Shown here: one piece after another, positions 43,553 through 55,587 of the stretch
Position numbering within the stretch: position 1 is the first letter of the stretch
Layout of the letters: every line of letters starts with the position of its first letter
NCBI GenBank assembly: GCA_905234755.1
Contig: CAJOIT010000002.1
Location: forward strand, 90,405-154,404
DNA from: an uncultured Bacteroidales bacterium
GTDB lineage: Bacteria; Bacteroidota; Bacteroidia; Bacteroidales; ML635J-15
Reading direction: 5' to 3'
Length of the DNA: 64,000 nt
Position numbers and translations under genes: made by a program
The notes under the pieces: generated by a model
The model's database searches: none
Seen by the model: the letters and a program-made list of their open reading frames with translations, nothing else
Told to the model about the DNA's origin: nothing

Positions 43553-43577
43553 GATGCTGAAACAAGTTCAGCATGAC
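43553..43577 (-). repeat. Solo copy of the GTCATGCTGAAC palindromic 25-mer
   Basis: Reads GTCATGCTGAAC...TTCAGCATC on the minus strand and matches the left-end palindromes at 48055, 48205 and 48708. No right-end partner is nearby. Confidence 0.85.
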
Positions 43578-46153: not shown

Positions 46154-48037
46154 TTACTCTATCTTTTCTGCGAGTTCGAGCCATCGCATTTCTTTTTCGT
46201 CAATGCTATCAATGAGTTGCGAATACTCCGCCGACTTTGCTGCAATTTCAAACGGCGAAAGTTTTCCCGAATTAAGTTCGTCCTCCATAGCAGTACGCTT
46301 TGCATTCAATTCTTCCAACTCCTTTTCTAGCATGTCGTATTCGCGTTGCTCATTGTACGACAACTTTTTCTTTTGCGTTGGCACAACCTTTTTTGGTTCC
46401 TGCGACACTGGTTTCGGTTCCTTGGCTTCCTTAGGCGATGCGAACTCAATATACTTGTCATATTCCTTTGAATCGCGGAACTGCGTATAGTTGCCAGGAA
46501 AATCAACAATCCGCCCATCGCCCTCAAACACAAATATATGATCAACAATCTTGTCCATGAAAAAGCGGTCGTGCGAAACAAGAATAACCGTTGCATCAAT
46601 CATGGTCAGGTATTCCTCAAGCACCTGCAAAGTCGTTATGTCCAAATCGTTGGTAGGTTCGTCCATTATCAGCACATTGGGTTGCTGAATAAGCACAGTA
46701 CAAAGGTACAATCTGCGCTTTTCGCCACCGCTGAGCTTGCGCACAAGCGTATGCTGCATATCGCCCGTAAACATGAAATAATTGAGCAGTCCCGATGCAG
46801 AAAAACTCTTACCATCACGCAACTTCACATCATCCGAAATCTTGCGAACAATATCAATCGGTTTGTCGTCATCGTTGAAAGTAATGCCGTCCTGAGTGTA
46901 GTATGCGAATTTTACAGTCTGACCAATCTCAATGTGACCGCTGTCAGGAGCAAGATTTCCTGTTATAAGGTTCAAAAAAGTTGTCTTACCCACCCCATTG
47001 CGACCAACGATTCCAATCTTTTCGCATCGCGAGACCTTGTACGAAAATTCATCGATAATCTTTTGGCTACCAAACGATTTCGACACATTGTAAATATCAA
47101 TGATTTTCTTTCCTAGACGCTGATTTGCAACATCGAGTTCAAGTTTTCTTTCATCTATTCGCTGCGATGCCCTTGCTTTCAGATTTTCAAACTCGTCGAT
47201 ACGATATTTTGCCTTGTGTGAACGAGCCTTTGGCATACGGCGAATCCATTCCTGCTCCGTACGCATTAGGTTCTGCGCCCTCTCGATATTGGCTTGCAAG
47301 TTTTCAATGCGCTCAGCACGCTTTTCGACATAATAGGTGTAATTCCCTGAATATGAATATATGTTTCCTCCATCCATTTCGATTATGGTATCGCATATAC
47401 GGTCGAGGAAATAGCGGTCGTGTGTAACCATGAATATAGTTATGTTTGCTGACGACAAATAATCTTCAAGCCATTCTATCACATTGAGGTCCAACTGGTT
47501 TGTCGGTTCATCAAGGATAAGGAGCTGTGGTTCGCAAATAAGCAGTCCTGCAAGCGCAACACGCTTTTTTTGTCCACCGCTGAGAGTACCAATTTTTTTG
47601 TCAAGGTCGTGAATATCGAGTTTACCTAGGATTTGCCTGATGCGCGATTCGTAATCCCAAGCATTAAGGGCGTCCATCTTGTCCAACAGCGATGGCAAAA
47701 CCTCGTGAGATTCTGAATAAAGGCAGTCGTTGTATTGGCGGATAGTCTGAGTAATTTCATTTTCGAGCACAAAGACGGCATCAAGCACTGTGCGGTCCGG
47801 ATTCATTTCGATTTCCTGTGGCAGATAACCGATTCTCACATCGCGCCGGCGGCTCAATTTTCCGCTATCGGACGAGTCAACGCCTGCAAGTATGTTCAGT
47901 AACGAGGTCTTTCCCGTGCCATTCTTGGCGACTAGGGCAATTTTCTGTCCCTCGCCTATGCTTAAGCTGATGTTTTCGAACAGCAACTTGTCGCCGTATC
48001 GCTTGCTTATGTTTTCCGCCTGAAGAAGACTTTCCAT
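46154..48037 (-). CDS. ABC-F family ATPase, Uup-like
   Basis: 627 residues with two ABC domains and no membrane segment. First Walker A KNGTGKTS and signature LSGGQKKR; second Walker A RNGVGKTT and signature LSGGEKRR; the interdomain linker (about 240-300) is charged and helical. A C-terminal coiled coil (about 545-627, e.g. LEKELEELNAKRTAMEDEL) is the hallmark of the Uup group. ABC-F proteins act on the ribosome to relieve stalls or, for Uup, help tolerate precise transposon excision and ribosome assembly defects. The region downstream on its strand is the tRNA operon read in the opposite direction. Confidence 0.92.
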   Translation of the reverse strand: MESLLQAENISKRYGDKLLFENISLSIGEGQKIALVAKNGTGKTSLLNILAGVDSSDSGKLSRRRDVRIGYLPQEIEMNPDRTVLDAVFVLENEITQTIRQYNDCLYSESHEVLPSLLDKMDALNAWDYESRIRQILGKLDIHDLDKKIGTLSGGQKKRVALAGLLICEPQLLILDEPTNQLDLNVIEWLEDYLSSANITIFMVTHDRYFLDRICDTIIEMDGGNIYSYSGNYTYYVEKRAERIENLQANIERAQNLMRTEQEWIRRMPKARSHKAKYRIDEFENLKARASQRIDERKLELDVANQRLGKKIIDIYNVSKSFGSQKIIDEFSYKVSRCEKIGIVGRNGVGKTTFLNLITGNLAPDSGHIEIGQTVKFAYYTQDGITFNDDDKPIDIVRKISDDVKLRDGKSFSASGLLNYFMFTGDMQHTLVRKLSGGEKRRLYLCTVLIQQPNVLIMDEPTNDLDITTLQVLEEYLTMIDATVILVSHDRFFMDKIVDHIFVFEGDGRIVDFPGNYTQFRDSKEYDKYIEFASPKEAKEPKPVSQEPKKVVPTQKKKLSYNEQREYDMLEKELEELNAKRTAMEDELNSGKLSPFEIAAKSAEYSQLIDSIDEKEMRWLELAEKIE

Positions 48038-48054
48038 ATCACATTCCCCTACTA

Positions 48055-48137
48055 GTCATGCTGAACTTGTTTCAGCATCCGTTTCTATAATTAAACACAC
48101 ATTCCCTTTTCAGATTCTGAAATAAATTCAGAATGAC
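48055..48137 (+). repeat. 83-bp palindrome-ended element, module 1 (no gene inside)
   Basis: Left palindrome GTCATGCTGAAC...TTCAGCATC at 48055-48079, a 33-nt spacer, and right palindrome GATTCTGAA ATAAA TTCAGAATGAC at 48113-48137. The outer ends are inverted (GTCAT...ATGAC). The right hairpin extends outward by TTCCCTTTT / AAAAGGGAA (48102-48146). Its spacer is similar to that of module 3. Confidence 0.85.
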
Positions 48138-48204
48138 AAAAGGGAAGACAAATCCACAAACACTTTTATAATCAGAGACAATCATTATTTTCTCTCTACT
48201 ACTA
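48138..48204. repeat. Inter-module direct repeat, copy 1
   Basis: 67 nt shared with 48638-48707: AAATCCACAAACA, TTTATAATCA, GACAATCATT and TTTCTCTCTACTACTA, with small differences. Together with the left palindromes the repeat copies are exactly 500 nt apart and flank the nuclease gene. Confidence 0.8.
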
Positions 48205-48637
48205 GTCATGCTGAACTTGTTTCAGCATCTGTTACTATGATTCTTTTAACGATTTATAATATTCCGACACTGACTCAATTATTTCATCATCTACACCAAC
48301 CTCTTCCGCCAAGTCTTTCCACTGCGGATTCATCTCTGCAACAAGATTATTTTTCCAATCACGATGCCATTGTTTCAATTGCTTTTCTCTTGATATTGCA
48401 TCTTCAACATTCTCAAAATCATCAAAATAAACTAGTTTCTTACAATTATATTTTGCAGTAAAGCCATCGTTGACATGCGCCTTATGTTCGGCAACCCTAC
48501 GAACCAAATCGTTTGTTACTCCAATATAAAGCACATTATTGGTGTAATTTGACATCATATAGACATAATATGTTTTCATATTGTTTCTATTACATCCGAC
48601 TTCTCCTTTTCAGATCCTGAAATAAATTCAGGATGAC
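48205..48637. mobile_element. Putative palindrome-ended element carrying a GIY-YIG nuclease gene (module 2)
   Basis: Same left palindrome (48205-48229) and same type of right palindrome (48613-48637, here GATCCTGAA / TTCAGGATGAC) as modules 1 and 3, but the space between them contains the nuclease gene instead of 33 nt. The right hairpin differs from module 1 by paired changes (T-A to C-G in the inner stem; TTCTCC with GGAGAA in the outer stem), so pairing is preserved. Mobility is inference: no target-site duplication or empty site can be seen from this window alone. Confidence 0.55.
48235..48579 (-). CDS. GIY-YIG single-domain nuclease (UPF0213/YhbQ-like)
   Basis: 114 residues. YYVYMMSN (4-11) and LYIGVTNDLVRRVAEHK (17-33) are the GIY-YIG strands, with catalytic-type Arg (R27/R28) and His (H32). 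Glu at 65 (AISREKQLKQW) is the probable metal ligand. The C-terminal ~40 residues (DLAEEVGVDDEIIESVSEYYKSLKES) form an acidic helical tail. Related small GIY-YIG proteins are common in Bacteroidota with unknown role. The gene lies on the minus strand between two inverted palindromes, and its stop is only 5 nt from the left one. This makes it a candidate for the enzyme that acts on these palindromes; that is inference. Confidence 0.9.
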   Translation of the reverse strand: MKTYYVYMMSNYTNNVLYIGVTNDLVRRVAEHKAHVNDGFTAKYNCKKLVYFDDFENVEDAISREKQLKQWHRDWKNNLVAEMNPQWKDLAEEVGVDDEIIESVSEYYKSLKES

Positions 48638-48707
48638 AAAAGGAGAAGGATTATCCACAAATACATTTATAATCAACGACAATCATTCTCTTTTCTCTCT
48701 ACTACTA
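48638..48707. repeat. Inter-module direct repeat, copy 2
   Basis: 70 nt matching 48138-48204: TTATCCACAAATACA, TTTATAATCA, GACAATCATT and TTTCTCTCTACTACTA. Leads directly into module 3. Confidence 0.8.
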
Positions 48708-48790
48708 GTCATGCTGAACTAGTTTCAGCATCCGTTACTTCAATTATACCAACCTTCCCTTTTCAGATTCTGAAATAAATTCATGATGAC
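48708..48790 (+). repeat. 83-bp palindrome-ended element, module 3 (no gene inside)
   Basis: Left palindrome at 48708-48732 (one change, CTTG to CTAG in the loop), 33-nt spacer, right palindrome at 48766-48790 with one stem mismatch (TTCATGATGAC). The outer arms CTTCCCTTTT / AAAAGGGAAG (48754-48800) are intact. Same length and spacer type as module 1. It ends 16 nt from the RluA-family gene's stop. Confidence 0.85.
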
Positions 48791-48806
48791 AAAAGGGAAG
48801 ACTGAT

Positions 48807-49502
48807 TCAAAATATCTTCCAAATCTTTTCATCTGGAAACGGCGCCTCAATGACAATTTCCTCCTTCTTCACTGGATGAACAAAAGTGATCCGCACAGCA
48901 TGAAGATTAATGCCTCCATTTTTGTTGGAACGCGGATATCCGTACTTCAAATCGCCACGGATAGGGCAACCCATATTGGCGAGCTGACAGCGAATCTGAT
49001 GATGACGACCTGTATGCAAGTCAACCTCAAGCAGATAATACCGCTCCGAATGTCCAATCACCTTGTACGACAAACTCGAGCGCTTTGCCTCTGGATGCTT
49101 TTCATCAACCACATACGACTTGTTCTGTTTGACATTGCGGTAAATGTAATCCACAAGCGTGTCGCTGTCCTTTGGCGGCTTGTTGCCGACAACCGCTAAA
49201 TATGTCTTATGCGCATCCTTAGTACGGAAAAGTTCGCTCAAGCGCGTCAATGCCTTGCTCGTCTTTGCAAAAAGCACCACTCCGCTCACAGGCCTGTCGA
49301 TACGATGCGGAACACCAAGGAAAACATTTCCTGGCTTGTTATCGCGCTCCTTTATGTAGGATTTCAGAATTTCAGACAGTGGCTTGTCGCCAGTATTGTC
49401 GCCCTGCACAATTTGCCCCGCCTGCTTGTTAACGGCAATTATGTGGTTGTCTTCGTACAGAATATCAACCGTTTGCGGACTTGTGTTTTGATGTTCAGCC
49501 AT
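48807..49502 (-). CDS. RluA-family RNA pseudouridine synthase
   Basis: 231 residues. The catalytic Asp lies in HRIDRPVSGVVLFAKT (about 66-81), followed by KTYLAVV and LHTGRHHQIRCQLA, the standard RluA motifs. There is no S4 domain, as in single-domain RluA/RluC-type short forms. It isomerises uridine in rRNA or tRNA; the target cannot be told. It starts 16 nt after panB and ends beside the palindrome cluster. Confidence 0.92.
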   Translation of the reverse strand: MAEHQNTSPQTVDILYEDNHIIAVNKQAGQIVQGDNTGDKPLSEILKSYIKERDNKPGNVFLGVPHRIDRPVSGVVLFAKTSKALTRLSELFRTKDAHKTYLAVVGNKPPKDSDTLVDYIYRNVKQNKSYVVDEKHPEAKRSSLSYKVIGHSERYYLLEVDLHTGRHHQIRCQLANMGCPIRGDLKYGYPRSNKNGGINLHAVRITFVHPVKKEEIVIEAPFPDEKIWKIF

Positions 49503-54826: not shown

Positions 54827-55587
54827 GTTGGCAGGAACGCACCGAATTGCTTCTAGGCGACGAAAAGATGAGAATTCTTCGCTCGGCGAAGGTGCTTGTC
54901 TGCGGACTTGGCGGTGTGGGCGGTGCTGCAGCCGAACAACTTGTGCGCGCTGGCATACAGAACCTTACGATAGTCGATGCCGACTGCGTTTCCGAAACCA
55001 ACATCAACCGCCAGCTTATTGCCACCCACGAAAACATAGGGAAACCTAAGGCAGAGGAATTTGCCAAGCGCTTCCGTGCCATAAATCCCGACATAAACCT
55101 CACTGTTATAGGTGAATATCTTCGTGATGAGTTTCTGGAATCGACACTGAAAAATGGCAACTGGGATTTTGTTGTCGATGCCATCGACACGCTTTCGCCC
55201 AAGATGCACCTGATGAGAATCTGCCACCAGAATGGCATTCCATCTGTTAGTTGCATGGGATCTGGCGGAAAGAAAAATCCGCAGATGATTCAGATTGCCG
55301 ACATTTCCAAGACCTACAACTGCCGTCTTGCGCTTATGCTACGCAAACGATTACACCGAATAGGCATCTACAAAGGCATAACCGTAGTTTTCTCGCCCGA
55401 ACTTGTCGATAAAAGCGCCATTGTAGAGGAAGAAAGCACAAACAAGAAATCAAATGTCGGCACAATAAGTTACATTCCAGTGGTTTTCGGCTGCATGTGC
55501 GCGTATGCTTGCATAGATTATTTGACAAAACAAACAGAAACAAGTCATTCTGAACTTGTTTCAGCACCTTCAGCTCAGCGAAGCTAA
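54823..55587 (+). CDS. tcdA: tRNA threonylcarbamoyladenosine dehydratase
   Basis: 254 residues. The E1/ThiF-like fold has the nucleotide-binding GLGGVGGAAAEQL, the DADCVSETNINRQ motif, and SCMGSGGKKNPQ. TcdA activates the t6A side chain with ATP to form the cyclic ct6A in tRNA. The normal domain appears to end near YACIDYLTKQ; the following residues, SHSELVSAPSAQRS, are the translation of a palindromic repeat (55544-55568) and its flank, so the C-terminus seems to have been replaced or extended by repeat insertion. Confidence 0.92.
   Translation: MSWQERTELLLGDEKMRILRSAKVLVCGLGGVGGAAAEQLVRAGIQNLTIVDADCVSETNINRQLIATHENIGKPKAEEFAKRFRAINPDINLTVIGEYLRDEFLESTLKNGNWDFVVDAIDTLSPKMHLMRICHQNGIPSVSCMGSGGKKNPQMIQIADISKTYNCRLALMLRKRLHRIGIYKGITVVFSPELVDKSAIVEEESTNKKSNVGTISYIPVVFGCMCAYACIDYLTKQTETSHSELVSAPSAQRS
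55544..55568 (+). repeat. Solo palindromic 25-mer inside the 3' end of tcdA
   Basis: GTCATTCTGAAC...TTCAGCACC matches the left palindromes at 48055, 48205 and 48708 with few changes, and lies within the reading frame (encoding HSELVSA). Confidence 0.85.

Follow-up and report, generated by a model that had tools for sequence, protein, structure and literature searches.

Palindromic intergenic repeats form a visible share of many bacterial genomes. To our knowledge, the spread of such repeats outside the RAYT-linked REPs is mostly without a known source. REPIN palindromes have a foot of the GTAG type. In the REPIN/RAYT system, the nearest known kind to the elements described here, REP doublets occur together with a REP-associated tyrosine transposase, and RAYTs are single-copy genes that are apparently unable to move themselves (PMC3116915). 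The dRS3 repeat of Neisseria, ATTCCC(N8)GGGAAT, is present in ~700 copies per meningococcal genome and is the integration target of phage Nf1; a review of dRS3 names no spreading enzyme and mentions the Nf1 integrase as a possible recombiner only (PMC3898611). RIME and ABC are intergenic palindromic mosaic repeats of rhizobia with "unknown function" (cited in PMC2573895). GIY-YIG is a classic homing-nuclease fold (PMC1564403). A link between GIY-YIG genes and REP-like repeats was not reported in the open literature searched (subscription journals and preprints lay outside its scope), and searches of that literature with the palindrome strings returned unrelated papers only.

We analyzed a 64,000-nt stretch of DNA (the window), in which a GIY-YIG gene lies inside a palindrome-ended element. 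Like REPIN/RAYT, the elements consist of short intergenic palindromes that form inverted doublets and have many non-autonomous copies. In both systems the genes of one family are flanked by their own palindrome class and spread laterally, with the palindrome type tied to the gene type. They differ in that the partner here is a GIY-YIG nuclease rather than a Y1 HUH transposase, the foot is GTCAY rather than of the GTAG type, and the gene, unlike the single-copy RAYT, is multi-copy with recent duplicates. Because the Y1 transposase is not the partner (see below), we keep the GIY-YIG elements apart from REPIN/RAYT. The fold, the catalytic residues and the mobility of the gene resemble those of free-standing GIY-YIG homing endonucleases, but the protein is a small stand-alone domain, and its gene is palindrome-ended and intergenic, with no intron or coding target.

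Anatomy of the locus

The first-pass annotation of the window had described three modules bounded by inverted pairs of palindromic 25-mers, and all six 25-mers were found at their places (Table 1). The window contained 8 matches to the 25-mers, compared with 0.01 expected by chance, and none of 100 shuffles gave as many. Modules 1 and 3, described as gene-less 83-bp copies, each measured 83 nt with 33-nt spacers, and the direct repeats said to lie between the modules around the gene were likewise present (60–70 nt, 501 nt apart, 78% identity).

Table 1. Features of the GIY-YIG locus, numbered from the first nucleotide of the window
Feature	Position	Strand	Evidence
Single palindrome away from modules	43553-43577	-	25-mer match
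Left neighbour: ABC-F type ATPase gene, named from sequence	46154-48037	-	
Module 1 left palindrome, outer end GTCAT	48055-48079	+	Exact 25-mer match
Module 1 spacer, 33 nt, where module 2 has the gene	48080-48112		
Module 1 right palindrome with extended outer arms TTCCCTTTT / AAAAGGGAA	48102-48146		44-nt fold z -5.3
Module 1 right palindrome, outer end ATGAC	48113-48137	-	25-mer match
Inter-module repeat copy 1	48138-48197		Direct-repeat comparison
Module 2 left palindrome, downstream end of GIY-YIG gene	48205-48229	+	25-mer match
GIY-YIG nuclease gene, 114 aa, within module 2	48235-48579	-	Pfam PF01541 E=1e-16
Module 2 right palindrome with extended arms TTCTCC / GGAGAA	48600-48648		Inverted-repeat comparison, fold
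Module 2 right palindrome, upstream end of GIY-YIG gene, compensatory C-G pair	48613-48637	-	
Inter-module repeat copy 2	48639-48698		78% identity to copy 1
Module 3 left palindrome	48708-48732	+	25-mer match
Module 3 right palindrome, one broken pair	48766-48790	-	25-mer match with 1 mismatch
Right neighbour: RluA-type pseudouridine synthase gene, named from sequence	48807-49502	-	
Single palindrome away from modules, slightly degenerate	55544-55568	+	1 mismatch

Base-pairing had also been taken to be conserved. This holds for module 2, in which the stem has changed in pairs from TTCTGAA/TTCAGAA to TCCTGAA/TTCAGGA and the outer arms from TTCCC/GGGAA to TTCTCC/GGAGAA, but not for the right palindrome of module 3, which reads TTCATGA with one pair broken; pairing is therefore imperfectly conserved. 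The DNA folds well beyond shuffled sequences (z -3.6 to -5.5), and an Rfam search gave zero matches.

The 3.3-Mb genome to which the window belongs (G000) contains ~43 exact 25-mers of the window class, compared with 0 matches to a reversed control pattern. The count of doublets that the annotation had proposed did not favor doublets as the usual form: most copies are singles, and doublets are the minority.

The GIY-YIG protein and its flanking palindromes

The window gene encodes 114 aa and belongs to a family with a size of ~95 aa. Its product has the features of the GIY-YIG superfamily, including the PF01541 domain match, the invariant Tyr, Gly, Arg, His/Tyr, Glu and Asn, and the fold, and the catalytic-type residues Y7, Y18, G20, R28, H32, E65 and N84 are kept across phyla. 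The closest solved folds to the predicted structure (pLDDT 93) are those of UPF0213, Slx1 and UvrC, and the closest solved chains are UPF0213 1zg2 and 1ywl. Slx1 is a branched-DNA nuclease. With dN/dS values of 0.06 and 0.11, the gene is under purifying selection.

Relatives of the window protein with 42–62% identity and the same anatomy occur in Chloroflexota, Planctomycetota, Patescibacteria, Alpha- and Gammaproteobacteria, Ignavibacteria, Acetothermia and others. The same design is found in Bacteroidota, Alpha-, Beta- and Gammaproteobacteria, Chloroflexota, Planctomycetota, Patescibacteria, Cyanobacteriota and others, and the pattern of a gene with hairpins spans at least 8 bacterial phyla. 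Among 296 high-quality Bacteroidota genomes, 143 contain the gene, in up to 10 copies each, and these too have this anatomy.

The palindrome on the upstream side of the gene reads (T/C)GTCAY-stem-loop-stem'-RTCY, and that on the downstream side is its inverse. The 171 nearest palindromes, from a search that required GTCAY, led with GTCAT (161) or GTCAC (10), and their inner ends were ATCT/ATCC in 144 and GTCT/GTCC in 9. When every lead pentamer before outward hairpins was ranked without bias, GTCAT came first.

Flanking was tested at 129 non-redundant loci drawn from many phyla, counting outward palindromes with an exact stem of >=5 within 200 bp on both sides. Both-side flanking was observed for 48 of 129 GIY-YIG genes and 2 of 98 other ORFs at the same loci (odds ratio 28, p=8e-12), and at stem 6 for 25 GIY-YIG genes versus 1 other ORF. 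Palindrome density was 6.25/kb within 200 bp of the gene and 2.27/kb in intergenic DNA >500 bp away; paired flanking is the better statistic, because the genomes are palindrome-rich overall. The strict palindrome test failed at 37 of 129 loci, several of which have imperfect versions by eye. The association of the gene with palindromes is strong, and to the question whether doublets cluster near GIY-YIG genes of this clade, the answer is that these genes are usually palindrome-flanked. A chance origin of the pattern is ruled out by the shuffles, the reversed control, the lead-pentamer scan and the comparison with other ORFs.

Some copies lie among repeats that already have names. In N. gonorrhoeae, the GIY-YIG gene sits inside a dense dRS3 array with 16 copies in 3.3 kb (locus L293), which read GTCATTCCC..GGGAATC or the inverse. 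The elements resemble dRS3/NIME in this respect, although the ATTCCC(N8)GGGAAT pattern occurs at L293 only and the window copy does not carry it. Rhizobial GIY-YIG copies are flanked by GTCATCCTCGGGCTTGACCCGAGGATCC pairs, palindromes of the kind described as RIME and ABC, the likeness being one of description. The Azospirillum copy of the gene stands between sufB and sufC. On plasmid p1 of Planktothrix agardhii (L294, 17347-20616), the GIY-YIG element has a type IIL restriction-modification gene on one side and the DISARM gene drmA on the other.

Duplication and site polymorphism of the unit

Within the genus, the site between abcF and rluA varies in content. In G002, G005, G016 and G017 it is empty, a few nt being all that separates the start codon from the stop codon, which supplies the empty sites that the first-pass annotation had suggested looking for. 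The same place holds a gene-less doublet in G018, the gene module alone in G007, doublet-gene-doublet in G000, and the gene with several doublets in G023. At dispersed sites, one unit and one doublet are each present in G000 and G006 and missing from G023 and G014, and a second unit is present in G000 and G023 and missing from G014.

Duplicates define the ends of the unit. G236 has two copies either side of bioD, which encode proteins with 97% identity and whose similarity runs from palindrome to palindrome. In the two copies of G222, the genes are identical, and identity ends ~3 nt past the ATGAC of the right palindrome. Terminal inverted repeats bound the duplicated unit in both genomes, as in a classic transposon or MITE. 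No clear target-site duplication was seen at the compared sites (abcF/rluA, the dispersed sites and G236), and no clear excision product at the sites compared. The mobile unit and its palindrome ends are well supported: palindrome-to-palindrome duplicates and presence or absence at sites agree with the earlier placement of the gene inside a palindrome-ended mobile unit, and the doublets without a gene look like the non-autonomous derivatives that had been proposed for modules 1 and 3.

Other arrangements were also encountered. In G383:C1:120135-122177, five GIY-YIG frames of equal score, each with one stop, follow one another at a 450-nt period as a tandem array of apparently broken copies. 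An Acetothermia MAG has several near-identical element copies at or near contig ends of one assembly (L050, L052, L056, L058), as expected of an assembly-breaking repeat; the frame is disrupted in L052 and L056.

The polymorphism bears on a homing explanation, in which a free-standing nuclease would cut gene-less doublets that spread otherwise, and the gene would be copied into the spacer by break repair, with the flanking palindromes serving as homology and the doublets as landing sites. The classic homing fold (PMC1564403), the occurrence of doublets without the gene, and the gene-less doublet of G018 and palindrome-bounded gene of G007 at the same place all fit this explanation. Against it, entire units, beyond the gene alone, are present or absent at orthologous sites, duplicates include both palindromes at new sites, and the spread of the doublets is left without an explanation. 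We consider homing unlikely.

Residue 75 and palindrome class

The two palindromes of a locus resemble each other (left versus right similarity 0.757, compared with 0.451 for shuffled pairs, p<=5e-4). Palindrome similarity tracks protein similarity (Mantel p=0.001), and in the comparison of Bacteroidota with other phyla p was 0.007. In a scan over all columns of the protein alignment, column 75, in the helix after the catalytic Glu, was the best predictor of palindrome class. Fully paired palindromes accompany W75 (or F/Y) in 43/46, and the ..YGA..GAR.. class accompanies K75/R75 in 43/46. The W/K contrast was first tried post hoc on the sequences, and the column scan then ranked column 75 first unprompted. 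Both combinations of residue and class are found within Alpha- and within Gammaproteobacteria, and the genome-wide balance of palindrome classes follows the resident nuclease type (p=0.0013). Whether residue 75 is W or K predicts which palindrome class is present, and the phylum of the host is largely irrelevant to this. The window nuclease is of the W75 type and the Planktothrix copy (L294) of the K75 type. The link could reflect shared ancestry of both traits; a phylogeny-controlled test with the helix left out was underpowered, with only 4 well-supported independent contrasts in the tree.

Palindromes in genomes without the gene

YGA-class palindromes are more numerous in Bacteroidota genomes with the gene (median 17, n=143) than in those without it (median 3, n=153; p=5e-13), and the excess holds within taxonomic families (p=2e-4). 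The expectation that genomes without the gene lack doublets failed: 24 of the 153 gene-negative Bacteroidota genomes are palindrome-rich (>=20), and ~19 of these 24 have no relative at E<=1e-3. Many genomes of the same genus are also palindrome-rich while lacking the gene; seven have palindromes and no close gene copy.

The 257 pattern matches of G150 form doublets that are nearly identical to one another. A sample of 400 kb from this genome had 13/13 neighbouring pairs arranged head-to-head, 19, 20 or 28 nt apart, including perfect doublets at the 19–20-nt spacing; there were tight doublets only, and no other partner gene lay between palindromes. G150 has neither this nuclease, the sole match being a weak one in a 460-aa frame that is probably UvrC, nor Y1_Tnp.

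Judging by the palindrome-rich genomes that lack the gene, the palindromes do not need a resident gene to persist or spread; recent gene loss, supply in trans from elsewhere, or another enzyme may be the reason. Because such copies exist, we infer the mobiliser role of the nuclease rather than observe it. The annotation had said that its idea would be refuted if doublets were equally common without the gene, or if genes of this clade usually lacked flanking palindromes. The rich gene-less genomes go part of the way toward the first, and the usual flanking of the clade's genes contradicts the second.

The same genomes are the argument for regarding the GIY-YIG gene as mere cargo caught between two palindromes, whose movement would be due to another enzyme or to replication or repair alone. 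We consider this improbable, since no other gene is so placed (2/98 ORFs, 1/30 Y1 transposases), it is the same gene family that reappears in different phyla, where purifying selection acts on it, and the palindrome class is tied to the nuclease subtype.

Single palindromes and their outer arms

In 37 stretches of G000 (L180-L216), most of the single palindromes had extra, site-specific complementary outer arms, often an A-run and a T-run as in bidirectional terminators. The arms AAAAACGGAAT..ATTCCGTTTTT recur at several sites. These arms had suggested that the palindromes insert into loops of terminators already in place, but this is unsupported, as the outer arms are missing at the compared empty sites too; the arms therefore arrive with the unit or evolve later. 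They are gained or lost together with it.

The terminator-like arms of many G000 singles would fit palindromes that serve the host as regulatory hairpins, for termination or mRNA stability, with the gene neighbourhood incidental. This is very unlikely to account for copies that are polymorphic between close relatives, form fixed head-to-head doublets and cluster around one gene family.

Y1 transposases

The absence of a visible Y1 transposase, noted in the first-pass annotation, extends to the wider comparison. Among 30 loci with a Y1 transposase (PF01797) in these genomes, 1 had GTCAT flanking, which was a long-loop, AT-rich chance match, and when leads were scanned without bias at 18 Y1 loci, no palindrome was shared. 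G000 and its relatives do have Y1_Tnp genes, and G000 has a second palindrome class with GTAG ends; with the GTCAT palindromes, this indicates that two systems coexist. In G000:C3:89608-91047 (L195), a RAYT-like Y1 transposase ORF (~90-650) contains a GTAG-class palindrome, GTAGGGGCAGGTTTGAAACCTGCCCCTAC, as an in-frame interruption; one GTCAT palindrome lies ~60 bp downstream of the ORF (712-736). At the site of the GTCAT doublet of G000 and G006, G023 has an unrelated GTAG-class palindrome (G023:C18:241440-241830, L280) and G014 has neither. Two repeat systems are drawn to this one intergenic spot.

Linkage of the GTCAT palindromes to Y1/RAYT is ruled out by the 1/30 flanking and by palindrome-rich genomes without Y1_Tnp. 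That a Y1 (RAYT) transposase located elsewhere moves them in classic REPIN style, as the Y1_Tnp genes and GTAG-ended class of G000 and relatives might suggest, has practically no likelihood, given Y1 genes without GTCAT flanking and the absence of any Y1_Tnp match in the gene-positive G153 and G423 and in G150 and G390, despite 133–269 palindromes.

Discussion

The best reading of these observations, to which we assign a probability of roughly 60%, is a widespread family of REPIN-like mobile elements, with the window element as one member, in which a GIY-YIG nuclease would replace the Y1 transposase. The nuclease is probably the mobiliser. This role is suggested by the specific flanking, the recurrence across phyla, the palindrome-to-palindrome duplicates, the site polymorphism, the higher palindrome counts of gene-positive genomes, the likeness of left and right palindromes, the residue-75 link, the purifying selection, the structural nearness to Slx1, and the lack of flanking at Y1 transposase genes.

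The unit ends in hairpins that read GTC[A..T]CY and stand in inverted orientation throughout, with GTCAY facing outward. Complete units have a GIY-YIG gene of ~95–114 aa between two hairpins, and short ones have only a spacer of 20–45 nt (a doublet) or have decayed to one hairpin. In the mechanism that we propose from these sequence comparisons, the nuclease may recognise the hairpin as a folded single strand or an extruded cruciform, with the helix around residue 75 providing some of the contacts, and would nick at the GTC foot. For the subsequent route, we infer that the nick could release the unit or prime its copying, followed by repair into another intergenic site. Doublets would be moved in trans, and singles would be remnants.

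A broader possibility, on which we are evenly divided, is that these elements form a bacteria-wide class, whose hairpin-ended units would be recognised and moved by a minimal GIY-YIG nuclease. Many orphan palindromic repeats (dRS3/NIME, the rhizobial palindromes, and GTCATYC..GRATC of Bacteroidota and Cyanobacteria) would thereby gain their missing mobiliser. This would solve the REPIN/RAYT problem independently and with an unrelated enzyme, and a one-residue W/K75 switch would set the hairpin preference. If this is true, repeats that were named separately in Neisseria, rhizobia, Bacteroidota and others would have one cause, and a nuclease fold would be added to the enzymes that move hairpin-ended DNA. 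The protein and its hairpin would form a very small, testable recognition pair, and a gene that is very often annotated only as "GIY-YIG nuclease family protein" would gain a meaning.
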